Shown: one piece after another, positions 42,243-64,000 of the stretch | Layout of the letters: the number at the start of each line of letters is the position of its first letter | Numbering within the stretch: the stretch's first letter is position 1 | Origin: Cyanobacteria bacterium FACHB-63 | GTDB lineage: Bacteria > Cyanobacteriota > Cyanobacteriia > Leptolyngbyales > Leptolyngbyaceae | Assembly (NCBI GenBank): GCA_014695255.1 | Contig: JACJNX010000061.1 | Span: 1-64,000 of the forward strand | Length of the DNA: 64,000 bases | Reading direction: 5' to 3' | Notes under the pieces: generated by a model | Seen by the model: only the letters and a program-made list of their open reading frames with translations | What the model was told of the DNA's origin: nothing | The model's database searches: none | Position numbers and translations under genes: made by a program

Positions 42243-42944
42243 ATGATTCGTTTATTAGTTGGCATTTTGGCGTTCGTGATCAATCAGGTTTATCGAGATC
42301 GACCCATGCCGCGCTTTTATGTCCTAGAAACAGTAGCAAGAGTTCCTTACTTCTCCTATTTGTCTGTGCTGCACCTCTATGAAACATTAGGTCTTTGGCG
42401 CAAAGCAGATTGGCTGAAAGTACACTTCGCCGAATCCTGGAACGAACTCCATCACCTGTTAATCATGGAAGAATTAGGAGGAAGTCGAAACTGGGTCGAT
42501 CGAGTGCTTGCCCGTAGTACTGCATTAATTTACTACTGGATTGTGGTTGGACTGTACGTGGTTCATCCAAAAGCGGCTTACAACTTTATGGAGCTTGTCG
42601 AGCGCCATGCGTATCACAGCTATGACAAGTACCTTAAAGAAAATGCACAATACCTGAAAGGACAACCTGCACCACAAGTCGCGGTGAACTACTACCGAGA
42701 TGGCGATCTGTATATGTTTGATGAGTTCCAAGCCAGCAGAAAGCCTGAAGAACGTCGTCCGAAGATCGACAGCTTGTATGATGTTTTCGTGGCAATTCGA
42801 GACGATGAATCAGAGCACGTCAAAACGATGATTGCCTGCCAGCACCCTAATGCACAACTGACGCTTCAAAGTCCGCATACGGCTTGCGCGATCGAGGACA
42901 CCACAGACGGCACTGCTCAAAACGACGAGGCGTTTGCTGCTTAA
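42243..42944 (+). CDS. ptox: Plastid-terminal-oxidase-like (PTOX/AOX) diiron oxidase
   Basis: A membrane-bound quinol oxidase that reduces oxygen to water, taking electrons from plastoquinol. It has 233 residues from ATG 42243 (MIRLLVGILAFVINQVYRDR). The diiron ligands appear in VLETVARVPYFSYLSVLHLY, FAESWNELHHLLIMEELGG (ExxH), LVERHAYHSYDKYLK (ExxxH-type) and VFVAIRDDESEHVKTM (ExxH). The membrane-binding helix is ALIYYWIVVGLYVVHP. It lies immediately upstream of the oxygen-sensitive pyruvate formate-lyase cluster, on the same strand but about 400 bp away. It could lower local oxygen or relieve over-reduction; this is inference. Confidence 0.92.
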   Translation: MIRLLVGILAFVINQVYRDRPMPRFYVLETVARVPYFSYLSVLHLYETLGLWRKADWLKVHFAESWNELHHLLIMEELGGSRNWVDRVLARSTALIYYWIVVGLYVVHPKAAYNFMELVERHAYHSYDKYLKENAQYLKGQPAPQVAVNYYRDGDLYMFDEFQASRKPEERRPKIDSLYDVFVAIRDDESEHVKTMIACQHPNAQLTLQSPHTACAIEDTTDGTAQNDEAFAA

Positions 42945-42965
42945 CTTCAAAGCAGAGCTTCGCTG

Positions 42966-43024
42966 ACACTAGCAGACTTTGAATAGGCTATTTTCTTAAC
43001 GATCGTCTGCATTGCTGCTAGTGT
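42966..43024. terminator. Inverted repeat after the oxidase gene
   Basis: ACACTAGCAG (42966-42975) pairs with CTGCTAGTGT (43015-43024) around a 39-base loop that contains an alternative pair AGCAGAC/GTCTGC. It has no strong T-run, so it may be a terminator or an RNA structure. It lies 22 bp past the oxidase stop. Confidence 0.4.
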
Positions 43025-43043
43025 TACCTTTCGGCTTTTGAGT

Positions 43044-43159
43044 GTGTTGATCAACACCTTAAGTTTTTGAAATTGTTAGCCAATGATACAGAAATAAGCG
43101 ATATCGTGCGGAAGGATTTAGAGGCTTGCTGTCCAGTAATCTAGTGTCCAGTCATCTAG
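43044..43159. promoter_or_regulatory. Palindrome and tandem repeat in the pfl upstream region
   Basis: A 14-bp perfect palindrome GTGTTGATCAACAC (43044-43057) and a 15-bp direct duplication TGTCCAGTaATCTAG / TGTCCAGTcATCTAG (43130-43144, 43145-43159) lie 190-300 bp before pflB. TGTGATAGC occurs twice nearby (43162 and 43231). They could bind a redox or carbon regulator, but none matches a standard FNR or NtcA box. Confidence 0.4.
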
Positions 43160-43346
43160 TGTGTGATAGCTCCTTTTCCGGAACTGAACCAACTTAAGCT
43201 TTAGAGGTATCTCTGTGATTGTTTAGGCCTATGTGATAGCGAACATACTAAATTGAGCCAGTCGATCGCTACAGAGTGCCCTCTCTTCCGTTCAGAAACC
43301 CTGCACGTTGCACACAGAATCACCATTTACAAGAGGTCAGATCAGT

Positions 43347-45575: not shown

Positions 45576-45714
45576 GGTGAGTTTTAGAACCTTCTGGGGG
45601 CGGGAGTGAACGAAGCGAGGAACTTTAAAGCACGCCCTGAGCTATAGAGATTGATTAATATTTCAGTATTGTCATAGTTCTGCAAAGCTTCAACTGAGTG
45701 AAGAGGTACAACAG

Positions 45715-46461
45715 ATGGTTAGCAATCTTTCCACGGCAACAGGCTATATTCACTCGGTCGAAACTTGTGGCACAGTGGACGGCCCCGGTATTCGGTTTAT
45801 TGTGTTTACTGCGGGTTGTCCGCTGCGCTGCTTGTGCTGCTGCAATCCCGATTGTCGCCATTTAGAAGATGGTCATCCGGTGAGCGTAGATGAATTAATC
45901 AATGAAATTCAGAAGTACACCCCTTACATGAAAGCCTCTGGCGGTGGAGTTACAGTCTGTGGGGGTGAACCTTTGTTTCAGCCTCAATTTGTGCGGGAGA
46001 TTTTTAAACAATGCAAAGCACTGAATATCCATACTGCTCTTGATACTTCTGGCTTTTGTGAACTATCGAATGCAATTCCTGTCCTCGAATTCACAGATCT
46101 TGTGTTGCTAGATATTAAATCATTCGATGCAAACACTTACCACAAAGTAACAGGTGTTAGCATTGAGCCAACCCTAACGCTTGCACGCTACCTCAATCAA
46201 ATTCACAAGCCTGTTTGGATTCGATTCGTTCTCGTACCAGGATTAACTGACGACCCACAAAATATTGCTGATTTGGCAGATTTTCTTGCCACATTCACCA
46301 ATGTTGAAAAAATTGATGTTTTACCGTTTCACAAGCTGGGCGAATACAAATGGGAGCAATTGGGATACGAGTATTTGTTAAAAGATACATCTCCCCCAAC
46401 CCCGGAGCAAGTTAAAGCGGCAATAGAGATCTTTAGAAGTCGCAATCTCAATGCAATGTAG
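45715..46461 (+). CDS. pflA: Pyruvate formate-lyase activating enzyme
   Basis: A radical SAM enzyme that makes the glycyl radical on PflB. It has 248 residues and is preceded by a GAAGAGG ribosome-binding site. The CX3CX2C cluster motif is C35-C39-C42 in GCPLRCLCCCNPDCR, with an unusual run of Cys (C41-C43). KASGGGVTVCGGEPLFQP is the SAM-binding GGE motif. ETCGTVDGPGIRFIVFTAGC is the family start. It would need reduced flavodoxin or ferredoxin. The order pflB-pflA is standard. Confidence 0.96.
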   Translation: MVSNLSTATGYIHSVETCGTVDGPGIRFIVFTAGCPLRCLCCCNPDCRHLEDGHPVSVDELINEIQKYTPYMKASGGGVTVCGGEPLFQPQFVREIFKQCKALNIHTALDTSGFCELSNAIPVLEFTDLVLLDIKSFDANTYHKVTGVSIEPTLTLARYLNQIHKPVWIRFVLVPGLTDDPQNIADLADFLATFTNVEKIDVLPFHKLGEYKWEQLGYEYLLKDTSPPTPEQVKAAIEIFRSRNLNAM

Positions 46462-46508
46462 CCGCTCATGATCGATTGTTTAGACGCTACTCTCAAGGGA
46501 TAAGATTT

Positions 46509-49145
46509 ATGAACGTTGTAGTCGAGAAAAAACAAGACCTCGAAGCGCTAATCCAGAAGGTCAAAGCTGCACAAGCAGTTTACGCGACCTACACTCAAGA
46601 ACAGGTCGATCGCATTTTCAAAAAAGCGGCTCAAGCTGCGAATGAAGCTCGAATTCCGTTAGCAAAGCTAGCGGTTGCTGAAACAGGAATGGGCGTTGTG
46701 GAAGATAAAGTGATCAAAAATCACTTTGCTTCAGAGTTTATCTACAACAAGTACAAACACGAACAAACCTGCGGCATTCTGGAAGATGATCCCGCTTTTG
46801 GCTATCAACGTATTGCTGAGCCTGTGGGCATTCTTGCGGGCATTGTGCCTGTTACAAATCCAACCTCTACCACGATCTTCAAGGCGTTGCTGGCACTCAA
46901 AACCCGTAACGCCATTATTTTCTCACCGCACCCCAGAGCAAAACAATGTACGGCAGCAGCAGCAAAGATTGTTCTAGATGCGGCGATCGCAGCAGGTGCG
47001 CCTGCGGATTTAATCGGCTGGATTGAAGACCCAACCATTGATCGATCGCAAGCTTTAATGCAGCACCCAGATATTAAGTTGATCATCGCGACAGGTGGTC
47101 CCAACATGGTGAAGGCTGCTTATTCATCGGGACATCCTTCGCTAGGAGTTGGCGCAGGCAATACTCCAGCAATCATTGATGAAACCGCAAACATTAAGAT
47201 GGCAGTTTCCTCGATTCTGCTGAGCAAAACCTTTGATAACGGCATGATCTGTGCCAGCGAACAATCGATCGTGATTGTCGATGCGGTGTATGAAGCCGTG
47301 AAGCAGGAATTTATCGATCGCGGAGCCTATTTTCTCGATGGCGAGGAGCGCGATCGCTTGCGTCTGTGTGTGCTCAAGGATGGGCATCTCAATGCAAACA
47401 TTGTTGGACAATCTGTAGAACGCATTGCCCAGCTTGCCGATCTGCACCTTGAGCAGGCTTCTCCAAAAGTCTTGATGGCAGAAGTTGAAGCAGTCGGAGT
47501 TCAAGAGCCGTTATCTTACGAAAAACTTTCTCCGATTTTGGCAGTCTATCGAGCTACAACCTTTGAAGATGCAGTTCTGCAAGCTGAGCAAATCGTTGAG
47601 TTTGGCGGCTTAGGGCATACTTCGGTACTTTATACTCAACCAGGAAACACAGCGCACATTCATCAGTTTGAGAGTGTGCTGAGAACATCGCGAGTTTTGA
47701 TTAACACGCCTGCATCTCAAGGTGCGATCGGAGATCTGTACAACTTCCGGCTTGATCCCTCCCTCACTTTGGGCTGTGGTAGCTGGGGCGGTAATACGGT
47801 GTCTGAAAACGTCGCTCCGCACCATCTACTCAACGTCAAAACAGTCTCGCAGCGACGAGAAAATATGTTGTGGTTCCGCGTGCCACCGAAGGTTTACTTC
47901 CGCGATGGATGCTTACCTGTGGCATTAAAAGAGCTAACGGGTAGAAAGCGGGCGTTTGTCGTGACCGATAAGCCACTGTTTGATCTGGGTGTTTCAGAGA
48001 AAGTGACGCATATCTTAGAGGGGATCGGCATTACTCATCAAACCTTCTATGATGTTGAACCTGATCCGTCGCTTGATACGATCGAGAAGGGATTAGCCCA
48101 AATCAAGCTATTTGAACCGGATGTGATTATCGCGATCGGCGGCGGTTCTCCGATGGATGCAGCGAAAGTGATGTGGTTGATGTATGAACAACCCGAAACT
48201 GAGTTCGAGGGCTTGGCAACTCGATTTATGGACATTCGCAAGCGAGTTTATGAAGTGCAGCCCCTGGGACAAAAAGCAGATATGATCTGTGTTCCGACAA
48301 CTTCGGGTACAGGTTCGGAAGTAACACCGTTTGCGGTTGTGACTGATCAGAAGACGGGAATTAAATATCCCTTAGCAGACTATGCGCTGACTCCAAACAT
48401 GGCGATCGTTGATCCCGATTTGGTGATGAATATGCCGAAGCGATTGACGGCGTATGGTGGATTAGATGCTTTAACTCATGCGATCGAAGCTTATGTTTCT
48501 GTGTTCGCGTCTGAGTTCACAAACGGACTCGCTTTAGAAGCCATTCGATTGTTAATGAAGTATCTGCCTGCGGCATACCAAGAAGGTGCAAACAATCCCA
48601 AAGCGCGGGAAAAAGTCCATTACGCTGCAACAATGGCAGGAATGGCATTTGCAAACGCATTTTTGGGCATCTGTCACTCGCTGGCACACAAACTCGGTTC
48701 AACCTTCCATGTGCCCCACGGACTCGCAAACGCATTGTTAATTCCTTATGTGATTCGCTACAACGCCACTGATATTCCGTTTAAGCAAGCGATCTTCCCG
48801 CAGTACAAGTATCCGAATGCAAAATGGCGATATGCCCAGATCGCGGACTATGTGGGACTGACAGGAGCGAATGACGACGAGAAGGTTGAACAGTTGATCG
48901 GTGCGATCGAGGCGCTCAAGGCTCAACTCGATGTTCCCAAAACAATCAAAGAAGCGCTATCGGAAGGTGAGCAAACGTTCTACACTCAGGTTGAATGGAT
49001 GGCAGAACAAGCCTTTGATGATCAGTGTACAGGGGCAAATCCCCGCTACCCGCTGATTGAGGATCTAAAATCGCTTTACATTCAAGCGTATGAGGGCGAT
49101 CTAGCTCCTCGTTCTAGCCAAGACAATGTTTTGGTGACGCAGTGA
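46509..49145 (+). CDS. adhE: Bifunctional aldehyde-alcohol dehydrogenase AdhE
   Basis: Reduces acetyl-CoA to acetaldehyde and then to ethanol, regenerating two NAD+. It has 878 residues from ATG 46509 ([20 protein letters not shown]). The N-terminal CoA-acylating aldehyde dehydrogenase carries the catalytic Cys in [19 protein letters not shown]. The C-terminal iron alcohol dehydrogenase has [37 protein letters not shown] and the metal-ligand helix [20 protein letters not shown] with [12 protein letters not shown]. AdhE forms long filaments (spirosomes). It sits 47 bp after pflA and only 16 bp before the next gene, so the cluster is probably one operon. Confidence 0.97.
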
Positions 49146-49161
49146 GGCAGAGGGTAGGAAT

Positions 49162-51885
49162 ATTGTTTCCTTTGCAAACCATCAGAACAATTCTGTTCAT
49201 GATATTTGGCGCACTGAACGTCATCCGCTCGATGCGATCTTCACGCCTAAAACGATCGCAGTCATTGGTGCAACTGAGCGAGAAGGCAGCGTTGGCAGAA
49301 CGGTTCTTTGGAATCTGATCAGTCATCCATTTGGCGGCACAATCTTTCCAGTCAATCAAAAACGATCGAGTGTGTTAGGCATCAAAGCTTATCCGTCGAT
49401 CGCTGAAGTTCCCGAAGCGCTTGATCTTGCAACCATTGCAACGCCGGCGCCGACTGTTCCTGATTTAGTCGGTGAGTGTGTAGATGCGGGGGTGAAGGGT
49501 GCGATTATCCTTTCTGCTGGCTTTCGGGAAGTGGGAGTGATCGGCGCGGAACTCGAACAGCAAATTCGCGCTCATCTTCAACGAGGACAGCTTAGACTAA
49601 TTGGTCCAAACTGCTTGGGCGTGATGAACCCTCATCTCGGCTTGAATGCCACCTTTGCAAACTCAATCGCACATCCTGGAAAAGTCGGATTCATTAGTCA
49701 AAGTGGTGCATTGTGTAGTGCGATTCTCGATTGGAGCTTGCATGAGAATGTTGGCTTTAGTTCGTTTATCTCGATCGGCTCAATGCTTGATGTCGATTGG
49801 GGCGATCTCATCTACTATCTCGGTGATGATCCCCGCACTGAGAGCATTGTGATTTACATGGAATCGATCGGAGATGCACGATCGTTTCTCTCGGCAGCGC
49901 GAGAAGTCGCACTCACAAAACCAATCATTCTAATCAAGGCTGGACGCACTGAAGCCGCCGCACAAGCCGCAACCTCTCATACAGGGGCGATGGCAGGAAG
50001 TGATGCAGTGTTTAATGCGGCACTGCGGCGCTGTGGTGTGCTACGGGTCGATAGCATTTCTGATCTATTTGACATGGCGGAAGTGTTAGCAAAACAACCC
50101 CGCCCGAAAGGATCACGACTCACCATTATTACCAATGCAGGCGGGCCTGGTGTTTTAGCGACGGATGCTTTAGTGGCAAACGGTGGAACTTTAGCAGAAC
50201 TATCGCCAGAAACAATTGCAGCGCTTGATCAACACCTCCCCGCTCACTGGAGCCACCACAACCCGATCGATATCCTTGGAGATGCTGATCCCGATCGCTA
50301 TGCGAAAGCGTTAGAAATTGCTGCAAATGATCCCAATAGCGATGGATTGTTAGTGATTCTCACACCGCAAGCGATGAGCGATCCAACCAAAACGGCTCAA
50401 CAGTTACAGCGTTATGCTCAATCTGGAAAGCCGATTCTTGCAAGCTGGATGGGCAATGGTGAAGTTGCAGCAGGCGCAGAAATTCTCAACCAAGCAGACA
50501 TTCCGACCTTTGCTTATCCCGACACTGCGGCGCGATTGTTTAACTATATGTGGCGTTATAGCTACAATCTGCGCGGCATCTATGAAACACCAACTCTAGC
50601 CGAAGCTGAAACCGTCGATCATGATGCGATCGCAACGCTAATCAACACTGCAAGAACCGCAGGACGCACTCTTTTAACTGAGTTTGAATCTAAGCAAATT
50701 CTTGCGGCTTATGGCATTCCCACCGTTGAAACTCATGTTGCTCGGAGTGCTGATGAAGCGGTGCATATTGCTGAAAAACTCGGTTATCCAGTTGTTCTCA
50801 AACTCTACTCAGAAACCATCACCCATAAAACCGATGTGGGCGGAGTGCAGTTAAATCTATTGAATGCGGACGCAGTTCAAGAGGCTTACAGCACGATCGC
50901 AACCACAGTCACACAGCGAACCCAGGATCCCGATGCTTTCCTTGGTGTTACCGTTCAACCGATGATTCGGCGTGAAGGATATGAGTTAATTGTGGGTAGC
51001 AGTCTGGATGCTCAATTTGGCTCAGTCATGCTATTCGGTTCTGGGGGTCAGCTAGTCGAAGTATATCAAGACCGGGCGATCGCGCTTCCACCCTTGAATA
51101 CAACTTTGGCGCGACGCATGATGGAGCAAACCCTCATTTATCAAGCCCTTCAGGGTGTGCGAGGACGTAAAGCCGTTGACATCGCTGCGCTTGAAAAGCT
51201 ATTGGTGCGATTTAGTCAGTTAGTGGTTGAACAGCGCTGGATCAAAGAAATCGAAATCAATCCGTTACTTGCTTCGGCGAACAATCTAACGGCTCTAGAT
51301 GCGCGAGTTGTTCTTCATGATCCAGAGGTTACAGAACTGCCAACCTTAGCCATCCGACCTTACCCCAGCCAATTCACTTGGCATTACACTTTACCGAATG
51401 GCAAAGAGATCACGGTACGCCCGATTCGTCCAGAAGATGAACCCCTGATGATTCAGTTTCACAGAACTTTGTCAGAAGAAAGCGTTTATTTCCGGTATTT
51501 TCATCTCATTGCCCTAAAACAGCGTATTGCTCACGATCGTCTGACTCGCCTTTGCTTTATTGACTACGATCGCGAACTTGCGCTCGTTGCAGAACACACA
51601 GACCCCGAAACTGGGCACTCGGAAATTATGGCGGTCGCTCGACTGAGCAAATTACATGCCGCGAATGAAGCTGAATTTGCTTTGCTGGTAAGCGATCGAC
51701 ATCAACACCAAGGGTTAGGAACACTCCTGCTGAAGTGTTTATTAACGGTGGGACGACAGGAGCGATTAGAGCGGATTCGGGCTGAAATTCTGTTTGAGAA
51801 CGGAGCGATGCAGCGAGTTTGCGAAAAGCTAGGCTTTCAGTTACATCGCAGCCCGGATGTAGTGAAAGCTGAGATTTCGCTGTAA
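49162..51885 (+). CDS. ADP-forming acetyl(acyl)-CoA synthetase fused to a GNAT domain
   Basis: Converts acetyl-CoA, ADP and phosphate to acetate, CoA and ATP, giving ATP in fermentation. The frame is open from the adhE stop region, and the first Rossmann motif ([20 protein letters not shown]) lies well before the first GTG (49372). That GTG cannot be the true start without losing this motif. No ATG, GTG or TTG is in frame between; the best candidate is ATT at 49162 behind GAGGGTAGGA. This gives 907 residues. Order: CoA-binding domain, ligase domain with phospho-His [16 protein letters not shown]-grasp ([40 protein letters not shown]), then a GNAT domain ([20 protein letters not shown] onward). 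The GNAT may acetylate a lysine. It closely follows adhE. Confidence 0.88.
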
Positions 51886-51986
51886 TTATGTCCCTACAAA
51901 GCTCAACTGGACACGCGCTCCAGATTACTAGAGCACCCCCTAGAAGCGCGAGACAATCATGAATCACTCAACTTAGGAGAAGCACT

Positions 51987-52610
51987 ATGCGGCACTCAAA
52001 ACCAGATGCTTACCAAGAACTGCTAGAGATTCCCCCTGGCTATCTCAACATCATGGGCTATGTGGATGAGTCCGAAGTTAATGGACCTGGATGTCGGGCT
52101 GTGATTTGGGTACAGGGATGCTTGAGAGAGTGTCCGGGGTGCTTTAATCCTGCCTCTTGGTCGTTTGAAGCCAATCAGCTAGTGACGGTTGAAAGCTTAG
52201 TTGAGAAGATTTTGAGCAACGATCGCAACGAAGGCGTAACCTTCTCTGGTGGAGAACCGTTCTGGCAAGCCCCAGCACTGGCAAGCTTAGCGCGTCAAGT
52301 GAAAGCGGCTGGACTGAATGTGATGTCTTTCACGGGCTTTACGCTGGAACAACTGCAATCGGAGTATGCACCCGCAGGTAGCCAGGATCTACTCGCACAA
52401 CTCGATCTATTGATTGATGGTGCTTACATTGAATCGTTAGCAATCCATAGTCCTGAGTCTCTTGTTTCTTCTAGTAATCAACGGGTACATATCTTTAATC
52501 CTGAGTTTCAGGATCGTCTCACCTGGGCAAGCGATCAAGTCGAAGTTCACATTTTCAAGAACGGCAATCGCATCATCACAGGGTATCAAGGTCAGATGTC
52601 TTTAGCCTAA
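51987..52610 (+). CDS. NrdG-like radical SAM activase
   Basis: A 207-residue radical SAM protein. The cluster motif is C45-C49-C52 in WVQGCLRECPGCFNPASW. VTFSGGEPFWQAPALASLAR is the SAM-binding GGE motif. The start (LNIMGYVDESEVNGPGCRAV) resembles anaerobic ribonucleotide reductase activating proteins (NrdG) that install a glycyl radical. There is no nrdD here, so the target may be PflB or another glycyl-radical enzyme elsewhere. It is in the same direction as the cluster, about 100 bp after the synthetase gene. Confidence 0.85.
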   Translation: MRHSKPDAYQELLEIPPGYLNIMGYVDESEVNGPGCRAVIWVQGCLRECPGCFNPASWSFEANQLVTVESLVEKILSNDRNEGVTFSGGEPFWQAPALASLARQVKAAGLNVMSFTGFTLEQLQSEYAPAGSQDLLAQLDLLIDGAYIESLAIHSPESLVSSSNQRVHIFNPEFQDRLTWASDQVEVHIFKNGNRIITGYQGQMSLA

Positions 52611-52675
52611 GTTCGCCGAGTTTTCCCGGAAGGCAACCCGGATTCAATAGATTGCTTGCATGAATACAAGATTGC

Positions 52676-52712
52676 CCTCATCCCCAACCCTTCTCCCTGA
52701 GGGTTCACGCAC
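52676..52712. repeat. Partial dispersed repeat (CCTCATCCCCAACCC type)
   Basis: CCCTCATCCCCAACCCTTCT, then CCCTGAGGG. This sequence type is a common short interspersed repeat in cyanobacteria, often with GGGAGAAGGG arms; here only part remains. It lies upstream of the phosphoketolase gene. Only one copy is seen in the window, so the call rests on general knowledge. Confidence 0.45.
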
Positions 52713-52780
52713 TAAGTTCAATATCGCAGCGATCGCTTTCTATCAAACTTTCGTATCTTTCAAGTTGAGGAGTAAGAATT

Positions 52781-55216
52781 ATGGTAGCGACCCCGAACAG
52801 ACCCACAGTAGAGAATTCGATTAGTCCGTATGGTGAAGCGCGATCGACCGTAAAAGGATCGCCGCTCAGCCAAGAAGAAGCCCGCAAAATTCATGCCTTC
52901 TGGCAAGCCTGTAACTATCTTGCAGCAGGCATGATTTATCTACGCGCCAATCCCCTTCTAAAAGAGCCGCTCCAGCCCGCACACATCAAGAATCGCTTGT
53001 TAGGGCATTGGGGATCAAGTCCAGGTCTGAGCTTTATCTACACCCACTGCAATCGACTGATCAAAAAGCTTGACCTGAACATGATCTTTCTAGCAGGCCC
53101 TGGACATGGTGCGCCTGGGGTACTTGCTCCTATTTACCTGGAGGGAACCTATTCAGAAGTCTTTCCCGACAAAAGCGAAGATACAGAAGGACTATTGCGA
53201 TTTTTCAAACAGTTCTCCTTCCCAGGCGGCATTGGTAGCCATTGCACACCCGAAACACCCGGATCAATTCATGAAGGCGGAGAGTTAGGCTACAGTGTCT
53301 CTCACGCCTATGGAACTGTCTTTGACAATCCGGATCTGATCAGTGTTGTCGTCGTTGGAGATGGGGAATCAGAAACAGGACCATTAGCCACGGCATGGCA
53401 CTCGAATAAATTCATCAATCCGGCACGAGACGGCGCAGTACTGCCGATTCTGCATCTCAATGGCTACAAAATCAATAACCCGACTATTCTTTCTCGCGTC
53501 ACGCACGAAGAACTTGCAGACCTCTTCAGAGGCTATGGCTACAAGCCCTACTTTGTAGAAGGGAGTGACCCAGAAACAATGCACCAAGCAATGGCGGCGA
53601 CACTAGAACATTGCATCAGTGAAATCAAAGCCATTCAGTCTGAAGCCCGCAGCGGTGGTGTTGTTCAACGTCCTCGCTTTCCGATGATTGTTCTTCGCAC
53701 TCCGAAGGGCTGGACAGGACCAAAAGAAGTGGACGGACATAAAGTAGAAGGATTTTGGCGATCGCACCAAGTCCCTCTCACCAAAATGCACCAAAATCCT
53801 GAGCAGCTACAACAGTTAGAAGCCTGGATGAAAAGCTACAAACCCGAAGAACTGTTTGATCAAAACGGTTGTCTGATTCCCGAACTCAAAGATATCGCTC
53901 CCACAGGCACCTATCGCATGAGTGCCAATCCTCATGCCAATGGGGGAGCATTGCGACGATCGCTGAAAATGCCAGACTTCCGCGACTATGGCATCGACAT
54001 TCCCAAACCGGGTCAGCTTGAAGTCGAAAACACCAAGCCGCTTGGAAGGTTTCTGCGGGACATCATGCAGCTCAATCCAACGAACTTCCGAGTCTTTGGT
54101 CCTGATGAAACCACATCAAACAAGCTTGATGCAATCTACGAGGTCAGTAAAAAGCTTTGGCTTGCTGAGTATCTGCCGGAAGACGAAGACGGTGGCGAGC
54201 TTTCTCCAGACGGTCGAGTGCTGGAAATGCTGAGCGAACACACTTTAGAAGGCTGGCTAGAAGGCTACCTACTCACAGGACGACATGGATTCTTCTCAAC
54301 CTATGAAGCATTCGTTCACGTGATTGATTCCATGTTCAACCAGCACGCAAAATGGTTAGAGATCTGCAACCATCTTTCGTGGCGTGAGGACATTGCATCT
54401 CTGAATTTACTGATTACCTCTACCGTATGGCGACAAGATCACAACGGCTTCACTCACCAAGATCCAGGCTTTCTTGATCTAGTTGTCAACAAAAGCCCCG
54501 CCGTAACCCGAATCTATCTACCCCCTGATGTCAACTCGCTGCTATCTGTTGCCGATCACTGTTTGCAGAGTACAAACTACATCAATGTAATTGTGTCTGA
54601 CAAACAACTCCATTTCCAATACATGGATATGGATACTGCAATCAAGCATTGTACAAAAGGGATCGGGATTTGGAATTGGGCAAGTAATGATCAAGGGACA
54701 GAACCCGATGTCGTCATGGCAACAGCAGGGGATATTCCAACCCAAGAAGCATTAGCCGCAACAGCAATGCTGCGCGAGGAGTTCCCGGACTTGAAGATTC
54801 GGTTTATCAACGTAGTTGATTTGTTTAAGCTGCAACCGGATACCGAGCATCCCCATGGAATGAGCGATCGTGATTTTGACAGTCTTTTTACGATCGATAA
54901 GCCCATTATCTTTAACTTCCACGGTTATCCTTGGCTGATTCACCGTCTTGCCTACCGCCGCACCAATCATGCCAATATGCACGTCCGGGGCTACAAAGAA
55001 AAAGGCAACATCAACACACCGCTAGAACTCGCGATTAATAACAATATCGATCGCTTTAGCCTAGCAATGGATGTGATCGATCGAGTTCCAAAGCTAAGGG
55101 TTGCGGGTGCTCATGCTAAAGAGAAGTTCAAGAATATGCAGATTCAATGTCGTCACTATGCTTATGAGCATGGCGTTGATCTCCCAGAAGTGATCAACTG
55201 GCGATGGGATCTCTAA
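52781..55216 (+). CDS. xfp: Phosphoketolase
   Basis: Splits xylulose-5-phosphate or fructose-6-phosphate with phosphate to acetyl-phosphate and an aldose phosphate. It has 811 residues and a strong GAGGAGT ribosome-binding site. Signatures: [60 protein letters not shown], the ThDP motif [39 protein letters not shown], and [20 protein letters not shown] with the catalytic Glu. Acetyl-phosphate can go to acetate plus ATP or to acetyl-CoA, so it completes the fermentation cluster. An upstream spacer of 170 bp suggests its own promoter. Confidence 0.96.
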
Positions 55217-56138: not shown

Positions 56139-56771
56139 ATGGAAACCACAATTCCTATTTCCATCACGATCGTGGGGCATCCATTGATTGAATCAGTAAC
56201 GGTAGCATGGTCGGCGGACACTGGCATGGTTCCTAAAGCGCTTTCTTTCCCATCCACAGGAGGAACGGCGGAAGCTGAACTAACAAGCGAGAATCCCGCG
56301 ATCGCCAGAATTCATGGTCAAGCTCAAGTGAACTTTGCCATGTCAAATTGGGAGATCATTGACTGGGACGTGATCCAATCGGTGCAACAGGGAGGCGATC
56401 GCATTGTGATCGATCCGGGACAGTGGATTCAGTCTCTCAATCTGCAATTTGAAATTGCAGCCGATGAACGCGAGGAAAAGACGAATCGCAGCGATTTGGT
56501 AATTAACCTCAATTGGCAAGCTCCTCATCTTTCCCGTCCGGTCAAGCTCTCGCACCGCCTCGCACCCAATCAGAACTGGAAAGTGCCGTATCTGCTATTC
56601 CCTGAAGAACAGACGGTCTTTAGCATTACTGCATTTGGTGTGGTCAATCAACAACTGATCAAGATGCCACCTCAGTCGCTTGAATTGGACCGATCGCAAA
56701 AGCTCCCTTCAACATTGATCTTGCTTGCCAAAGATCAAGAGCTTCAGCTGTTCGATGCAATGTCTGTATAA
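56139..56771 (+). CDS. 210-residue protein related to the C-terminal half of the next gene's product
   Basis: I do not recognise the family. The protein is beta-rich, with no membrane helices or signal peptide. Segments (ARIHGQAQVNFAMSNWEIID, VIDPGQWIQSLNLQFEI, HLSRPVKLSHRLAPNQNWKV, FPEEQTVFSITAFGVVNQQL) align by eye with residues about 350-550 of the 676-residue protein downstream (VRINYQAQIDFNNAKFPIIN, VTIKPSARLGRVNIYLYTF, HLKNPIKESARIKPF, GTQPIVTFSAMGVIGTKLVR). It is thus a one-module paralogue of that larger protein. It starts at ATG 56139 after GAGGTCACTGGA. The next gene starts 49 bp after its stop. Confidence 0.65.
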   Translation: METTIPISITIVGHPLIESVTVAWSADTGMVPKALSFPSTGGTAEAELTSENPAIARIHGQAQVNFAMSNWEIIDWDVIQSVQQGGDRIVIDPGQWIQSLNLQFEIAADEREEKTNRSDLVINLNWQAPHLSRPVKLSHRLAPNQNWKVPYLLFPEEQTVFSITAFGVVNQQLIKMPPQSLELDRSQKLPSTLILLAKDQELQLFDAMSV

Positions 56772-56820
56772 AGTCGCTTCGTTTTTAGATACTTTACTTA
56801 CCACAAACCCAGGAGGTTTT

Positions 56821-58851
56821 ATGGTTTCTAGCCTGTCTTCTCAATATTGCGTTGCTTTGTCTGGTCAGAAATGGGATGTCGGTAACTTCACGCTTTGGCA
56901 AAGCTCAGATGATGATGTCATTCTGTTTAGTCCCAAACAAGCAACTCTGGCACGAGACTTTAAAACGGGACGCTATCAAGCTGCGATTAGCCAATTTCGA
57001 GTGCAGAAAGATGGAGCTTACAAAACCGTTGGTGGTGGCGCACTCTTCACTCTCTCTACAGGAATTGAATTTGATGCAGACACCTACAAGCAAATCGAAC
57101 AGCAATGGCGCGATGAGATCCTCAAATCAGGACGCGCAAAATCAAAAAATCCCCGCTTTGTTCCCTTGATCACTCGCAAAGGAACAGTCGAGTTATTGAT
57201 TCCCGAAGTGATTGGTAAACCGAGCCAATCGACGATCGACAATAAAGAATTCGGCGTGATTGGGTCTAAGGTGTCTTTGCTGGCAAACTTAACCGCTGAA
57301 GGGGCACAAGCACTAGCGCAGGCCGTTCGGAATCGGGAGAACACACCGATCGGAGTCATGGTGCGGTATGAATATCTGCAATCGATTCCGCAATGTATTG
57401 TCGAAGTGGAAGTGAATGGAAGCCGCGTGTTTAAGCATCTATCGGCTCAGCTAAAAGCGAGCTATGACGGATGGTTCTACGGTGCCAGCTTGGATCTGCA
57501 AGCACAATGGGAAAGCATGGTGCGGAATGGTGCCATTTCTGTAAAAGTGCAAGGCTTGGATAAGCTGCCAGACGGGATGGAGGAAGTTAAGCAAAACCTG
57601 CTGACGACCTTTATCGATCAGGCATTCAAGAACTTCTTCCCGATGCTGTTTGAGAAAAAGCCAGATGTTAAACCCGCTGAAGCAGGCAACACTTCTGGAT
57701 GGTATGGCGGTGCAAATTTCGCGCTGAAATGGCGGAAAGAGTCTGATGTGACCAATCTTTCCTTGAAGATGGAGTTTAACGGATTCTCCTGGCTCAAAGG
57801 TGCAATGGACACAGGTGCAACGTTCCTCTCTGAGTTGGATGCAAGCTATCTCAATGAGGTGAACACAGAGCTAACCTTCCCGTTACTCATGAGTGTTTCT
57901 CCTGATGAGATGGTGAAGTCGGTTGCACTGTCTTGTTCTGCCATGGAAGATGGTCGCCCTGTGATGATTCCAGCTTCTGATCTGTTTGGTGCAGATGTGA
58001 CATCCAAGCAGTATCTGCTCACCAGCCAGAAGCCCGATAAAGTCCGGATTAACTATCAGGCGCAAATTGACTTCAACAATGCGAAGTTCCCAATCATTAA
58101 CGAAAAGGGTTCTACCACTGGGGCACAGCCTTCTGTCACTATCAAACCTTCTGCTCGTCTGGGTCGAGTGAATATCTATCTCTACACCTTCGACAGCGAC
58201 AATCAGCTTAACCTGATGCCGGGTGACAAGGATGAGTTAGTCGTGAATGTTTCGGTTGGAGGAACACATCTGAAGAATCCGATCAAAGAATCTGCTCGGA
58301 TTAAGCCGTTCCCGAATGGAGAACCGATTACTTTCACCTATCCAATGCCGATCGATGGCACTCAACCGATCGTCACTTTCAGCGCAATGGGAGTCATTGG
58401 CACTAAGTTAGTCCGCGCCAAAGAACAGCCGATTACTTTAACCGAAGAATCAGTGTTTATCGTGGTGGATAAGAACGGGGTGCGACTGATTTCTAAAGAA
58501 GCTGATCTTCCCGAAAGCGATCCGATCGCAGATCGCCTGCTTACCGCAGGAACCAATCCGGTGATCAATCTCAGCGAATCTGAAAACAAGCAGCCTGAAT
58601 CTGAAAAGACTGAGCCTAACGGCAATGGTAACGGAACTAAAGGCAAAAAAGCGATCGCTGGAACATTAACCGCAGTGGAATACGGCAAATTTGGTCCGGC
58701 ACTGTGGATTGAGGAACTCAGTGGCAGCAAGCAGCGAGTCATGCTGCATGATGTGGAAGAAGCTGATCCGTTTGATGATGAAGGTCGCAAGAAGGTCAAA
58801 GTTCTGATCGATGAAACAGGCTACGCAGAATCGATCGTGGTTGAACTGTAA
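56821..58851 (+). CDS. 676-residue modular hypothetical protein
   Basis: Function unknown. A textbook AGGAGG ribosome-binding site precedes ATG 56821. Residues 60-215 form module A (AYKTVGGGALFTLSTGIEF, then SLLANLTAEGAQALAQAVRN, RENTPIGVMVRYEYLQSIP), which recurs in the partial gene at 62753. Residues 245-280 are helical and amphipathic (GMEEVKQNLLTTFIDQAFKN). Residues 350-550 are module B, shared with the 210-residue neighbour. Residues 575-640 are a low-complexity Glu/Gly/Asn linker (NKQPESEKTEPNGNGNGTKG), and a small C-terminal beta domain follows (IAGTLTAVEYGKFGPALWIE). No signal peptide or membrane helix, so probably cytoplasmic. It looks like a structural or scaffold protein. Confidence 0.7.
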   Translation: MVSSLSSQYCVALSGQKWDVGNFTLWQSSDDDVILFSPKQATLARDFKTGRYQAAISQFRVQKDGAYKTVGGGALFTLSTGIEFDADTYKQIEQQWRDEILKSGRAKSKNPRFVPLITRKGTVELLIPEVIGKPSQSTIDNKEFGVIGSKVSLLANLTAEGAQALAQAVRNRENTPIGVMVRYEYLQSIPQCIVEVEVNGSRVFKHLSAQLKASYDGWFYGASLDLQAQWESMVRNGAISVKVQGLDKLPDGMEEVKQNLLTTFIDQAFKNFFPMLFEKKPDVKPAEAGNTSGWYGGANFALKWRKESDVTNLSLKMEFNGFSWLKGAMDTGATFLSELDASYLNEVNTELTFPLLMSVSPDEMVKSVALSCSAMEDGRPVMIPASDLFGADVTSKQYLLTSQKPDKVRINYQAQIDFNNAKFPIINEKGSTTGAQPSVTIKPSARLGRVNIYLYTFDSDNQLNLMPGDKDELVVNVSVGGTHLKNPIKESARIKPFPNGEPITFTYPMPIDGTQPIVTFSAMGVIGTKLVRAKEQPITLTEESVFIVVDKNGVRLISKEADLPESDPIADRLLTAGTNPVINLSESENKQPESEKTEPNGNGNGTKGKKAIAGTLTAVEYGKFGPALWIEELSGSKQRVMLHDVEEADPFDDEGRKKVKVLIDETGYAESIVVEL

Positions 58852-58860
58852 TCCATGACT

Positions 58861-58893
58861 TGTGAGGATGAGAGCTATTCTTTCATCCTCACA
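58861..58893 (+). promoter_or_regulatory. Intercistronic hairpin before the protease gene
   Basis: TGTGAGGATGA (58861-58871) pairs exactly with TCATCCTCACA (58883-58893), with an 11-base loop. It starts 9 bp after the stop of the 676-residue protein and ends 27 bp before the protease start. With no T-run, it may be an attenuator, processing site or mRNA stabiliser that sets the ratio of the two proteins. Confidence 0.55.
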
Positions 58894-58919
58894 CTTGAGA
58901 ATAGAATGGTGAGCAATCT

Positions 58920-61900
58920 ATGTCTGATACTGAACGAACAATCTTAGTTCCTGCAAACTGCGAAATTCTCAGTCATGCTACCACCGAGATTTTGCATACC
59001 TATCGCAACGGTGAAGTTTTAGTCCGAACTGCCGCACCGATTGAGCCAACGGAAACACTAATTAATCCGGGAATTTGTTTAGAGAGTCCAACCAATCGGC
59101 TCCTCGAATCTAACCGATCGCGCTTAGACTCATTTAGCGATCGTGACATCATTACTGCCTATCTCGAACTAATTGGCCCGCTTGATCCAGACTGGTTATT
59201 GATTCTTCAACAATTAGAAATCGAATTACTACAATTTCAGCCTGAGCATAGCTTTTTGAGTCGGGGTTCTGTCCAAGCGTTTCGGCAGGCATTAAAGCAG
59301 TCTTTTGTGATTGATGTGGTGCCGATCGGAGCTGAAACGAAGCCTCAACCGCCAGCACCCGAAAGCGGAGTAGAAGAGGTCTGGATTATTGTGCAGGATC
59401 AGCCCGATCGCACTGCTCTAATTCAAGAACTCAATTCGATTCCTGAAGTTTCCATTGATCCAAATCAACCAATTGAGACAGTTGGATTTTATCTGCGGTT
59501 GCGAGGTCAGGTTTCCGCTCAAGGACAAGCCGCTCTGCTACATCATCCTCATGTGTTAGCCGTAGAACCCTACAGCCCCGTACAGCCCGAAGATGAAGTT
59601 GCAGGACTGATCTTAGCTGGACAATACAATAGTTCGGGACAACCTCAAGGATCATATTTACGATGGCTTGAGGATCATGGCATTAATGGTGCGGGAGTCA
59701 CGATCGGAATTGTAGATGCAGGGGTTGAAACAAACCATTCAGCCTTTACTGGACGAATTAAGCAACTGAATCCTGAGCGTAGATCCTGGCACGGTACGTT
59801 TGTGGCGGGTCATGCAGCAGGGTGCTATCTACAAGAAAAAGATAGCAACCAATTCATCTATGGATTAGGCATAGCTCCCAAAGCGGAATTACTGATTCAA
59901 GATAACCAATCAACCCCGATCGCACTCTGCCGCGAAACCGTCACCGAGAAAAGCCCATCCGGTCAAACCGGGAGCGTCCAGAATAACTCTTGGGGAGCGG
60001 GAACTAAAAACCCAATGGACTATGGATCACAAGAGGCAACCTACGATCGTTTAGTTCGCAATGCCGATCCAGATGGCGCGATCGCAAAGCCCTTAACCAT
60101 TTGCTTTTCGGCGGGTAACTCTGGTGTCAATGGTTTAACACGCCCAAAAGCTGCAAAAAATATTATTGTCACCGGAAATTCAGAAAACTATCGTCCTACG
60201 ATCGGCAAAGACCAAAGTGATAGCATCGATCAGCTTTATCAAGGCCCGCGAGGCAGCAGTCATGGTAACTGTGGGGATGGTCGCATTGCACCTCATCTTG
60301 TCGCACCCGGAGAATGGACAGCTTCTGCAAACTATGATTCTAATCCGGGAGATCGTGAATATATTAGTTCACAGTTGACTTGGGGAAGCGGCACATCTGC
60401 GGCAAGTCCCAAGACGGCTGGAGCATGTGCCCTCTTGATTCAATGGTGGCGACACCATCACTACAATCAAGACCCATCGCCTGCACTGCTGAAAGCAATG
60501 TTAGTCAATGGGGCTGAACCCTTGAAAGCAAGCGGATTTATCCCCAATATGCAGCAAGGCTGGGGCAGACTTAACTTAGAGAATGTTCTGCGCCCAGATG
60601 TGCAACGCATTCACGTAGATCAATCCATCCGACTAAAGCAGCGCGGCGACAATCAAACCTGGAAAATTCGAGTTGCAAATCCGAATCAGCCTGTGAAAGT
60701 GACTCTGTGCTGGAGCGATCCACCGGGAGCATTGGGAACTGGAACCAGCACTGCCTCTGCGATCGTCAATAAGTTAGCGTTACGCTTAGAAGCAAACGGC
60801 GAAACTCATCGAGGCAACCAATTCCAAAATGGATGGTCTTATCAGAATGGAAGCCGCGATCGTGAAGGCTGGGATAATCTACAAAATATTTTTCTAGCAC
60901 CCGGAACTGCAACAGGCACGTTACAGGTAACAGTCACCGCACTGGAAATTACGACGAATTGCTTGACTGGAAAGATTGATATTCCGCAGCAGGACTTTGC
61001 TTTAGTCATTAGCAATGCAGCGATCGAAACCGAGCAGACCAGTGTATTTGTGAGTGTCGATCCAGCGACTCAGACCAAGCCCAGTGCTTCAGGGGACTAT
61101 TGGGCAGGAGGAAACCAGGATCGTCAAACTCTAGACTATGACTGGTGGCAGAAAATTGATACAAACCCCACAAAACCCAATCAAAAGCCCGCAACTCAAC
61201 AGCAGGTCGATGCTTGGTGGATGAGAGAGGATATCGGATTCTCTAAGCCGGAAAGCGATCGCGCACTTCCGCCTGCGATCGTTCAATCTCTAGAAGCCAG
61301 CATCACAGCCATTACAGCAGGACAATCACACCAGATTGTCATGGCAAATAGAACCGAATCAGAAAGCAGTCGATCGAACCGATCAGAAGGACTCATCACG
61401 ATTGGGGGTGAAAAAATTGCTGAAAGCACAAAGAATATCACTCCGCTCCTTCAATATCCAGTCGATCTCAGTCGTGCACTGCTGCAATTGATGCAAAATT
61501 GGACTCAGTTCGGATCGCTTCAGCAGAAGCGAGTTGCAGTCCTACTTGTCGGAGCAGGAACACGAGTAACAGCAGAGGATCTTCTCGCATTGCGACGACT
61601 CGCACAGTTGGGACAACTGTATCTGATTTCAAGCGATGCTGCGTTGCTATCGTTTTTGGTGCAACGGGTGCATTGCTCTCCCAATTTATTCTGTCGTTTA
61701 GCAAAAGATGTGAATGCTTTACCGACTTTATTGCGCGATACGATCGTCGAAGCTAGTGGGGGACAGCAATGTGCGATCGACGCGAACTCTATAGTTATTG
61801 AGGACAAACGACTCAGTTATTACAGCTTCAACGTCACACACCTCGATCGTCATTTAACTATTCGACTGCAATTCTCACCTCAGCAAGCGCTACCTAAAAT

Positions 61901-62732
61901 CGCGCTATATCGATCTGGACAAGAAACGATCGACCTTTCTTCCAGCACTTCAGGAATTCAGATGACATCGGGCGAGGACTTTTTACAGATAGATTGCGAG
62001 CAACAATCGATCAGTGCAGGCGCGTGGAAACTACTGTTCCAACAGGCAACACCCGATGATACTTACCGGATCAGAGTGTGGGCATGGACTGATCTCTGTA
62101 TTTCCGTCAACCAAAAAACGCTCAGCGTCTCTGATCAAGAATTGAATTTTCTCATGACTGTGCAGGGTGGAGAGGGCATTACATTTCAGCGACTACAAGG
62201 GCAGCCGCGCCTGATTCAGGAAACTACAAGCGCCAATGAAGCAGAGTCCGATCGCTCCATCGAAGTCACTGCGATCGCGCCACGGGAGGGACAGCGACAG
62301 CCTGAATCAAGCCGCACAGTTGATGCAGCAGAATTGGGAACTGTGATTCGGGTGATGCCTTCTCAGACAGGAGCAATTGCCTTAGATGTGCCCCTGTGGG
62401 TTGAGGGTACTGATCCGCAGGGTGCTCCGTTCACGCGATTGATTCGGCAGAGTTTGATTCAGCTTGAACCCCGATCGCAGTGGCGACAACGCCTTGTAGA
62501 AGAAGCGGAACTTTTTTTCACGCCAGCCCAAATCCTGGGCGTAGAGCGAGAAGCGGGAGAAATTGTTCGCTTAAAGCTCCAACGCGGCGATCGCACTCGA
62601 TGGGTTTCTATTGCCTCACCTTCTCTGAGAACTCAACTGGAGTGGATTTTGCAGCAATCTTGGTCTACTCAGGAATGCTTAGTTGGCATTACAGGAGATG
62701 AAGTGTACGGACTCTATCGATCGCTGAAATAA
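58920..62732 (+). CDS. Giant intracellular subtilisin-like protease (S8, KP-43-like) with C-terminal extensions
   Basis: A 1270-residue serine protease without a signal peptide. Two N-terminal inhibitor-like modules (DIITAYLELIGPLDPDWLLI and EVWIIVQDQPDRTALIQELN) precede the catalytic domain. The triad is Asp266 (TIGIVDAGVETNH), His291 (SWHGTFVAGHAAG) and Ser493 (WGSGTSAASPKTAG), with the oxyanion Asn400 (CFSAGNSG). Residues 565-700 match the beta-sandwich of KP-43-type subtilisins (VKVTLCWSDPPGALGTG; QDFALVISNA). A Gln/Thr-rich linker leads to a vWA-like half domain at 845-935 (RVAVLLVGAGTRVTAEDLLA), then a beta-sandwich at 945-1045 and a final beta domain. All catalytic residues are present. 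The substrate may be the neighbouring modular proteins. Confidence 0.9.
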   Translation: MSDTERTILVPANCEILSHATTEILHTYRNGEVLVRTAAPIEPTETLINPGICLESPTNRLLESNRSRLDSFSDRDIITAYLELIGPLDPDWLLILQQLEIELLQFQPEHSFLSRGSVQAFRQALKQSFVIDVVPIGAETKPQPPAPESGVEEVWIIVQDQPDRTALIQELNSIPEVSIDPNQPIETVGFYLRLRGQVSAQGQAALLHHPHVLAVEPYSPVQPEDEVAGLILAGQYNSSGQPQGSYLRWLEDHGINGAGVTIGIVDAGVETNHSAFTGRIKQLNPERRSWHGTFVAGHAAGCYLQEKDSNQFIYGLGIAPKAELLIQDNQSTPIALCRETVTEKSPSGQTGSVQNNSWGAGTKNPMDYGSQEATYDRLVRNADPDGAIAKPLTICFSAGNSGVNGLTRPKAAKNIIVTGNSENYRPTIGKDQSDSIDQLYQGPRGSSHGNCGDGRIAPHLVAPGEWTASANYDSNPGDREYISSQLTWGSGTSAASPKTAGACALLIQWWRHHHYNQDPSPALLKAMLVNGAEPLKASGFIPNMQQGWGRLNLENVLRPDVQRIHVDQSIRLKQRGDNQTWKIRVANPNQPVKVTLCWSDPPGALGTGTSTASAIVNKLALRLEANGETHRGNQFQNGWSYQNGSRDREGWDNLQNIFLAPGTATGTLQVTVTALEITTNCLTGKIDIPQQDFALVISNAAIETEQTSVFVSVDPATQTKPSASGDYWAGGNQDRQTLDYDWWQKIDTNPTKPNQKPATQQQVDAWWMREDIGFSKPESDRALPPAIVQSLEASITAITAGQSHQIVMANRTESESSRSNRSEGLITIGGEKIAESTKNITPLLQYPVDLSRALLQLMQNWTQFGSLQQKRVAVLLVGAGTRVTAEDLLALRRLAQLGQLYLISSDAALLSFLVQRVHCSPNLFCRLAKDVNALPTLLRDTIVEASGGQQCAIDANSIVIEDKRLSYYSFNVTHLDRHLTIRLQFSPQQALPKIALYRSGQETIDLSSSTSGIQMTSGEDFLQIDCEQQSISAGAWKLLFQQATPDDTYRIRVWAWTDLCISVNQKTLSVSDQELNFLMTVQGGEGITFQRLQGQPRLIQETTSANEAESDRSIEVTAIAPREGQRQPESSRTVDAAELGTVIRVMPSQTGAIALDVPLWVEGTDPQGAPFTRLIRQSLIQLEPRSQWRQRLVEEAELFFTPAQILGVEREAGEIVRLKLQRGDRTRWVSIASPSLRTQLEWILQQSWSTQECLVGITGDEVYGLYRSLK

Positions 62733-62752
62733 AACGTTCATGCTACTTTTGG

Positions 62753-64000
62753 ATGAAACCTATGTTAAAGAACGGCTCACTTACAGAATCAGACTGGATT
62801 GCTTATCTTTCAGAAAATCTAAGTTCTTCGGATGCTGTTCCGACTGTCGAAGGCGATCGCCCGTCTTTGATTCGAGATCGAATTGCTGTCGATAGAATCT
62901 CTCCGGTTCTAAGCAAACCGATTACTGAAGTTGTCACATCTCCCATTTCAGTCATACCTATCAAAGACCAGTTCCGTGAAGGAATGATCGATCGATCTGT
63001 GTTGACTGACTTAACGACAGCAAATCTAGCAAAGTCTAATTTAGCAATTCAAGCGAAGCCAGAGTGGACGGTGACGGCTCAGCAAGTCTATCGGCAGATT
63101 CCACCTGTTCCAATGCTTGGTGATCCGATCAAAGTCGGAAATTTCTGGCTCTGGGCTGATCCGCAAGCGGATACCATTGAGGTCAAATTACCGGAGCGAT
63201 TTGCTCAAATTGATCAACGCTATGTTAAGCCTTTACCAAAGCCAATCTTAATCGATCAGCGAATCAATCCCGTCGATCGCATCATTACCCGCCCAATACT
63301 TGCTGCTAATCTAACAACAAGAGTCGATCGAGTAACCGACGATCGAATAATCGACGATCGAGTCATTCTCAAGCGCCCTGATTTAATTGATGCACTTAGG
63401 GTTCAGCAAATTAGAGTTCCAGTTCGTCGTGCTTTTTTCACAACTGTTGCACCAGAAATCCAATCCTTTCGATTGATTGTGCAACAAGGTCAACCCGGAC
63501 AAGCCACTGTCGGCACAGCGTTATTAACTGTCAGTCTATACACTAAAGATTCAGCAGAACTCTTAGAAACACATCGATTAGAGTGGACAGATGCTTTGGC
63601 TCAGGCAGGATATGGTGCTCGGATCTGGAAGTTCTTGCCAGTTAATTTACAGCAACTACAGCCCTTTCTTGACATTGATGCTCAGCAGTTACGATCGCCC
63701 GTACAAGTTTCCACCAATGCAGGCGCAGGCACCGCAACCTTTTTGCTAGAACTTTCTGAGATTGGCACTCAGATTTGGAGACAAGCGCTAGAACGCCGTC
63801 AGCCTGAGCAAATCACCGGAATTGCAAGATTTACGGCTAAATTCTATGCTCGTACCGACGATCGTTTGCAAATTCGCGAACAAAACTTTTCTGCGACTTT
63901 AGCAACCCTACTGTCCAGTTGCGGTTCAGAACATATCGAAGTCCTCAATCCGACCTTAGCCCTAACGACTTCAATTCTTGCCCAGCGTCACGCCTTTGTA
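62753..64000 (+). CDS. Large modular hypothetical protein (3' end outside window)
   Basis: The frame is open from ATG 62753 (or 62762, MLKNGSLTESDWIAYLSENL) to the window end, at least 413 residues. The first 230 residues are Pro/Ile/Asp/Arg-rich with repeated VDR/DDR motifs (TRVDRVTDDRIIDDRVILKR). From about residue 230 a domain like module A of the 676-residue protein appears: QATVGTALLTVSLYT, FLLELSEIGTQIWRQALERR, EQITGIARFTAKFYARTDDR. This is 20 bp downstream of the protease gene. No family is recognised; the missing 3' part is needed. Confidence 0.7.
   Translation, partial: MKPMLKNGSLTESDWIAYLSENLSSSDAVPTVEGDRPSLIRDRIAVDRISPVLSKPITEVVTSPISVIPIKDQFREGMIDRSVLTDLTTANLAKSNLAIQAKPEWTVTAQQVYRQIPPVPMLGDPIKVGNFWLWADPQADTIEVKLPERFAQIDQRYVKPLPKPILIDQRINPVDRIITRPILAANLTTRVDRVTDDRIIDDRVILKRPDLIDALRVQQIRVPVRRAFFTTVAPEIQSFRLIVQQGQPGQATVGTALLTVSLYTKDSAELLETHRLEWTDALAQAGYGARIWKFLPVNLQQLQPFLDIDAQQLRSPVQVSTNAGAGTATFLLELSEIGTQIWRQALERRQPEQITGIARFTAKFYARTDDRLQIREQNFSATLATLLSSCGSEHIEVLNPTLALTTSILAQRHAFV

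Follow-up and report, generated by a model that had tools for sequence, protein, structure and literature searches.

Four consecutive genes at the end of a 64,000-nucleotide stretch of Cyanobacteria bacterium FACHB-63 (contig JACJNX010000061.1, positions 1 to 64,000; hereafter the window) encode an S8 protease and three proteins, p1, p2 and p4, that are built from shared modules. On sequence comparison we consider it on balance probable that the four products form one heteromeric complex in which the subtilase would be the built-in catalytic subunit. The protease probably belongs with p2 and p4 as an integral partner, because it is fused to p4 in a distant relative and because it co-occurs with the module proteins. 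The occurrence of paralogous modules within one gene run suggests mutual binding of the subunits, while the fusion points to a protease that is itself a component of the complex and not just its processing enzyme. The cluster is real, uncharacterised and more coherent than the window alone showed.

The list of open reading frames (ORFs) of the window gives p1, p2, the S8 protease and p4 as consecutive plus-strand ORFs, separated by 49, 68 and 20 base pairs (bp), respectively (Table 1). A previous reading of the window, made from its letters alone (the sequence-only reading), had reported four plus-strand genes with short gaps, and its coordinates, lengths and gaps all agree with ours. The longest p2 ORF begins upstream of the ATG, at a TTG. 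The p4 gene runs past the window edge and stops at contig position 64654, 654 bases beyond it, on a contig that continues for 502 kb after the window; two AAA/STAND-like genes follow, which answers that reading's question about what lies past 64000.

Table 1. Coordinates of the cluster and associated features (window positions unless a locus is named).
Feature	Position	Strand	Description
p1	56139..56771	+	210 residues; by comparison a stand-alone module B; two tandem Ig-like beta-sandwich domains in model
p2	56821..58851	+	676 residues from ATG; predicted A ~1-290, B 349-556, low-complexity linker ~578-607, small C-terminal beta-rich region 608-676
Module B inside p2	57865..58488	+	residues 349-556; paralogous to p1 by comparison
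Hairpin, p2-S8 intercistronic gap	58861..58893	+	14 bp stem in window
Hairpin in same gap, locus L021	9997-10066
Hairpin in same gap, locus L022	8278-8372
S8 subtilase	58920..62732	+	1270 residues, KP-43-like; triad D266, H291, S493
Peptidase_S8 catalytic domain	59688..60566	+	protease residues 257-549, Pfam PF00082
Protease-specific C-terminal region	61287..62729	+	residues 790-1270; no Pfam or PDB sequence match
p4	62753..64000, open at window edge	+	633 residues; predicted linker 1 to ~230, module A from ~241, module B 406-583
Two AAA/STAND-like genes	L002 10767-14040	opposite	first with TPRs; pair beside metF and trpS in 6/8 genus genomes

Shared descent of the three module proteins was assessed by single-sequence and profile comparison. 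With phmmer against a small set, p1 matches p2 at residues 350-541 (expectation value, E, 3e-11; 4e-8 genome-wide) and p4 at 406-583 (E 6e-7); this p1-type module of p4 extends past the window edge and was invisible within the window. Profile comparison places p1 on p2 349-539 (98.7%, E 1.7e-16) and aligns p4 241-608 with p2 61-556 (98.5%, E 3e-15), so that both the alignment of p1 to about residues 350-550 of p2 and the second module common to p4 and p2, as proposed by the sequence-only reading, are recovered. Module A of p4 and p2 is barely detected by single-sequence searches and is seen by profile comparison. The match of the p4 profile to a wide module-A alignment alone is weak (38%, E 3e-4), and the relation of p4 to module A therefore rests on the profile comparison with p2. 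By these alignments p1 is a module B, p2 consists of modules A and B plus a small C-terminal region, p4 consists of a linker followed by A and B, and the modules of the three proteins are paralogous. Between the window genome and its relative G006, the ratio of nonsynonymous to synonymous substitution (dN/dS) is 0.05 for p2, 0.11 for the protease, 0.11 for p4 and 0.30 for p1, compared with 0.08-0.09 for three reference neighbours. All four genes are thus under purifying selection, with p2 the most constrained and p1 the fastest.

None of p1, p2 and p4 matches a family above cut-off in Pfam, NCBIfam, PHROGs or PADLOC (p4 also at full length, for Pfam and NCBIfam), in agreement with the earlier failure to recognise them. 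Matches were listed to E 1 for Pfam/NCBIfam and PHROGs and to E 0.01 for PADLOC; the sole row listed was p2 against CsoSCA_C, at E 0.21 and below cut-off. Among solved structures, sequence search found no relative of module A, p2, p4 or the protease C-terminus with a meaningful E-value. Structure prediction gave a usable model for module B alone, while it is the profile comparisons that relate the modules to one another, as the sequence-only reading had supposed; unrelated modules, which it had named as a refutation, were not the outcome. The AlphaFold2 model of module B, built with five divergent aligned copies, has a predicted local distance difference test score (pLDDT) of 83 and consists of two beta-sandwiches. 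Its nearest shapes are Ig-like. The best match is the PepT2 extracellular domain, at Z 8.8 over 88 residues, and the others include pilins, Bacteroides adhesins and transglutaminase beta-sandwiches. This predicted likeness is one of common arrangement, and it names no function or family. The Foldseek list obtained for full-length p2 was disregarded, its underlying model having a pLDDT of 39.5.

Evidence that protease and module proteins belong together also comes from outside the cyanobacteria. Searches of plasmids with tblastn returned two records for p2, one for p4, three for a protein of the module-A arrays described below and five for the protease, four of which match its catalytic part alone. 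On plasmid NZ_CP030129.1 of Indioceanicola profundi, a full-length p2 (42% identity) is followed by a single S8::p4 protein of 1810 residues, counted from the ATG used here (the RefSeq coding sequence starts 51 bases earlier). This protein joins S8 (52% over residues 6-724) to two PG_binding_1 domains, then to the protease-specific C-terminus and lastly to modules A and B of p4. The next annotated gene encodes PG_binding_1 and, above its family cut-off, the wall-hydrolase-like TIGR02594. In Streptomyces canus, WP_331722287.1 combines a p2-like region (p2 23-390, 23.9% identity, E 2e-12), which is also matched independently by the module-A profile, with a C-terminal Peptidase_C1 in one chain. 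The gene that follows carries the annotation of an I42 protease inhibitor, and two genes beyond it comes one for peptidoglycan binding.

Within the cyanobacteria the gene set was followed through sampled relatives, whose genomes we number G (G000 being the window genome) and whose loci we number L. A p2 query matches 8 of 97 relatives' genomes and finds a full-length p2 in three, namely G000, G006 (96%) and the Synechococcales metagenome-assembled genome JANXWB01 (G021; 78%), all of which carry p1, p2, S8 and p4 in identical order. The assignment of G021 to that metagenome-assembled genome comes from one locus out of 98 candidate stretches. Among 388 sampled genomes of the class, the protease-specific C-terminus is found in exactly these three. 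The genes are therefore not homologues scattered independently, an outcome that the sequence-only reading had named as counting against its cluster and had proposed to check by such a survey of co-occurrence. Members of the genus that lack the cluster mark it as accessory. The GC content of the part inside the window (0.482) equals that of its surroundings (0.475-0.486) and so gives no compositional sign of recent arrival.

The S8 protease is KP-43-like. It matches Peptidase_S8 with 102.7 bits (cut-off 21.8), and its nearest solved relatives are PDB 1wmd (residues 252-672, E 2.9e-34, phmmer) and 5fax (253-675). The alignment to 1wmd continues beyond the catalytic domain, to residue 672, over what we take to be the beta domain of 1wmd. 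The protease has the motifs of D266, H291 and S493 and of the oxyanion residue N400, and these recur in 4/4 orthologues compared, which bears out the full catalytic residues claimed earlier. Residues 61-250 presumably resemble a propeptide, although no propeptide family in Pfam confirms this. Residues 790-1270 have no Pfam family and no PDB sequence match, and as a candidate relative of p2 this C-terminus was rejected on profile comparison. An export signal, which the sequence-only reading had reported as lacking in the protease, is not seen by hydropathy in any of the four proteins (best 19-residue Kyte-Doolittle mean 1.05-1.44; a dedicated signal-peptide predictor was not used), nor do the Indioceanicola and Streptomyces proteins have a signal-like hydrophobic segment. 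The protease may be intracellular, as that reading had called it. An ordinary secreted alkaline subtilase with adhesin-like partners, exported without a Sec signal and serving scavenging or biofilm turnover, would agree with the two solved proteases nearest to it and with the adhesin- and pilin-like shape of module B. However, besides the missing hydrophobic segments, family matches reveal no export gene among the four, and the C-terminus of the protease turns up in none of the 388 genomes but the three that carry p2; we regard this explanation as rather improbable.

The sequence-only reading had proposed a protein assembly that is processed or triggered by its own protease. Of this, the functional link between protease and modules is supported by co-occurrence and by the S8::p4 fusion, which is stronger evidence than was available to that reading, and an assembly is plausible on indirect grounds, namely the paralogous subunits, their fixed order and the Ig-like p1. 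In the processing scenario, the protease would mature or trigger p2, p4 or both by cutting them, whereupon the released modules would act as the effector, for example by assembling or forming a pore. The same linkage by fusion and co-occurrence is compatible with it, as are the low-complexity linker before the last region of p2, a possible cut site, and the presence of two peptidase families (S8 and C1) alongside p2-like proteins. However, a peptidase within one chain with a module protein, as in Indioceanicola and Streptomyces, is easier to reconcile with a structural partnership than with a diffusible processing enzyme. No conserved cut site can be named, no search aimed at one having been made, and no pore-forming family is found among the Pfam or PADLOC matches of p2. 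We judge this scenario unlikely.

If the four products are subunits of one complex, they need not be made in equal amounts. A strong hairpin is predicted in the p2-S8 gap of all three cyanobacterial clusters (z -2.57, -5.86 and -3.65), and 2, 0 and 0 of 200 shuffles fold at least as well. Between the window and G006, 14/14 stem pairs are kept, with two pairs changed on both sides and two on one side; slid controls show 39-61% pairing and no two-sided change. The hairpin of G021 differs in sequence and gives no useful alignment. No Rfam family matches the hairpin, and the window copy is not a standard terminator, since no T-run follows it. The p1-p2 gap is unfolded in two species (z 1.01 and 1.33), and a scan for promoter and terminator consensus found no more sites than in shuffles. 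Conservation of the hairpin in three species suggests unequal expression of p1-p2 and S8-p4.

Taken together, p2 and p4 (both A and B) and p1 (B) would be paralogous beta-sandwich proteins that associate through their shared modules, with p4 as the part that docks the protease. The hairpin after p2 probably keeps p1 and p2, the scaffold, above S8 and p4, the catalytic arm. The complex, its stoichiometry, its site of action and its purpose are all what we infer. Its job might, tentatively, be that of a conflict or lysis effector at the cell envelope, by analogy with two distant relatives that carry or adjoin peptidoglycan-binding parts.

Several observations weigh against the proposed complex. 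The cluster is rare, its three cyanobacterial carriers belonging to one family, and the peptidoglycan parts are seen in the relatives alone and not in the cyanobacterial cluster. p1 is missing in Indioceanicola, and the p1 profile finds no module B in the Streptomyces canus protein. The Indioceanicola gap has no hairpin (z 0.11), and the shuffle control for paired changes is powerless with two alignable sequences (117/500 shuffles were as good). The AlphaFold2 model of full-length p2, from two sequences, is unusable at a mean pLDDT of 39.5. Finally, the six-gene arrays of the wider module-A family contain no recognised peptidase (family scan for G004; array flanks were scanned in part), so that the peptidase link is a feature of the p2 branch and of some lineages, not a universal one.

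These arrays are the wider setting of module A. The module-A profile matches 14/388 genomes of the class and 9/42 of the order; a p2-profile search of 386 genomes of the phylum matched the window genome only, in a sample that may not include G006 and G021. Six related genes follow one another in the order 843-577-176-744-753-940 residues in G004, G007, G218 and G103. The same order, with split frames and one extra gene, is found in G245, while the G014 array has split frames and lies over two contigs and G003 retains five of the six genes over two short contigs. Divergent arrays occur in G027, G373 and G137, and a fragment in G008. Near two of the arrays we also recorded an M1 peptidase with RTX repeats (~1.6 kb from that of G103) and a protein that combines CHAT, AAA and TPR (~2.4 kb from the array of G007; L025 904-4641). 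On plasmids, annotations flanking the Pararhizobium array name no peptidase, and the Paracoccus array, which also holds a PLD-like gene, lies directly downstream of genes for trypsin-EAD1, EAD1 and a STAND-like NTPase, whose starts overlap (L094 9957-14844).

Genes for gp25, Baseplate_J and Tail_P2_I come ~126 bp after the six-gene array in G004 (L024 12988-17521), as would be expected if the cluster were an accessory set of a contractile tail or injection system and the wider family were baseplate or fibre proteins. However, the Baseplate_J frame of G004 is split by a transposase-like ORF. G007, with an array, and G021, with the four-gene cluster, have no Baseplate_J match genome-wide, and in G000, G003 and G014 Baseplate_J and the family genes lie on different contigs (G003 and G014 are fragmented, and distance is not proven there). 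p1, p2 and p4 have no PHROGs match, p2 and one array protein have no phage match by tblastn, and family matches of the four genes include no baseplate, tube or sheath gene. A tail or injection system was accordingly rejected, as very improbable in general and near refuted for the four-gene cluster. Phage origin was likewise rejected: p2 and one array protein have no relatives in phage records, and none was confirmed in the viral contigs scanned. The window genome has a tail-like cluster of its own, with gp25, Baseplate_J and Tail_P2_I-like genes (L090 3058-13793, contig C6), on a contig other than that of the four genes.

The two AAA/STAND-like genes directly downstream raise the question of an anti-phage or abortive system with an NTPase sensor, in the manner of EAD/STAND conflict systems or of IetAS, a subtilase-ATPase pair. 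The gene run of the Paracoccus array, with its trypsin-EAD1 protein, EAD1 protein and STAND-like NTPase, is in keeping with such a system. However, the first AAA gene is present in 8/8 genus genomes, and the pair adjoins metF and trpS without the cluster in 4/6 of the cluster-lacking ones (G001, G004, G007 and G003). The pair lies on the opposite strand, and no such gene is near the G021 cluster. The AAA genes were therefore rejected as partners, being core genes of the genus. PADLOC yields no more than a generic subtilase and, weakly, IetS (E 5.5e-4), and we hold an NTPase-sensing defence system to be quite improbable here. Of the earlier reading, an undescribed gene set with shared modules stands, while the suggested defence, regulated-death or particle system finds no support in the PADLOC result or in the AAA neighbours, which are core genes.

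Other genes of note lie on either side of the cluster. A caspase-domain (C14) protein with TPR repeats is encoded ~13 kb downstream of p4 (L003 3278-5029; contig ~77.3-79.0 kb). Upstream, window positions 42237-55216 hold a block between menB-like and PNPOx genes, which we take to encode pyruvate formate-lyase and its activase, AdhE, an acetyl-CoA synthetase with acetyltransferase, a second radical-SAM activase and phosphoketolase. The block looks like a fermentation island, because the menB-like and PNPOx genes are ~1 kb apart in G006 (L021).

The literature search returned no paper with any of the six accessions or tags of the relatives that were looked for. A keyword search for such a subtilase cluster gave none relevant by title, and further searches gave none whose title or opening of the abstract describes the cluster. 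It is conceivable, though we would not yet favour it, that proteins with modules A and B are a novel class that associate with themselves into multi-subunit scaffolds, with as many as six paralogues in constant gene order. Different bacteria would then arm these scaffolds with peptidases of unrelated kinds (subtilisin, papain, trypsin-EAD) and with parts that bind the wall, giving a modular protease-bearing machine for which no counterpart is described. If the proposed complex is borne out, the cluster adds a protein family not described so far, members of which adjoin unrelated peptidases or are fused to them in three bacterial phyla. Indioceanicola would then offer a compact, testable two-gene case of how a subtilisin with no evident export signal is held, controlled and aimed within a complex.

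Among described systems, IetAS-type pairs have a dedicated ATPase partner gene, and none was found for the cluster. In bacterial gasdermin systems a gasdermin-type protein stands next to a protease; p1, p2 and p4 give no match of that type in Pfam or PADLOC, a result that covers sequence families and not the fold of full-length p2. In 'System 3' of Kaur et al. 2020, peptidases are coupled to a NucA endonuclease in mostly alphaproteobacterial operons with several peptidases, sometimes S8, EAD1 and peptidoglycan-attacking domains (PMC7159879). The Paracoccus array resembles it in its trypsin-EAD1 and EAD1 proteins. In contrast, searches of the window cluster revealed neither a NucA endonuclease nor a trypsin or EAD domain, so that it lacks the combination of NucA endonuclease and trypsin-like peptidase, and module A/B proteins are not recognisable in the passages that describe System 3 (PMC7159879).

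The module-A arrays of cyanobacteria, and the related ones on Pararhizobium and Paracoccus plasmids, share with the cluster an N-terminal module A homologous to that of p2, but they lack the S8 protease, carry other C-terminal beta-rich repeats and show no module B by the p1 profile. In the Streptomyces canus fusion, as in the cluster, a p2-like part is tied to a peptidase, although this is of the papain family rather than a subtilase and has an annotated I42 inhibitor alongside. KP-43-type subtilases (PDB 1wmd; SubHal, 5fax) are alike in the catalytic and following region (252-672) and in their intact triad motifs. Unlike them, the window protease lacks a signal-like segment and has the additional C-terminal region 790-1270, and in the four loci found p2 and p4 are its neighbours or fusion partner.

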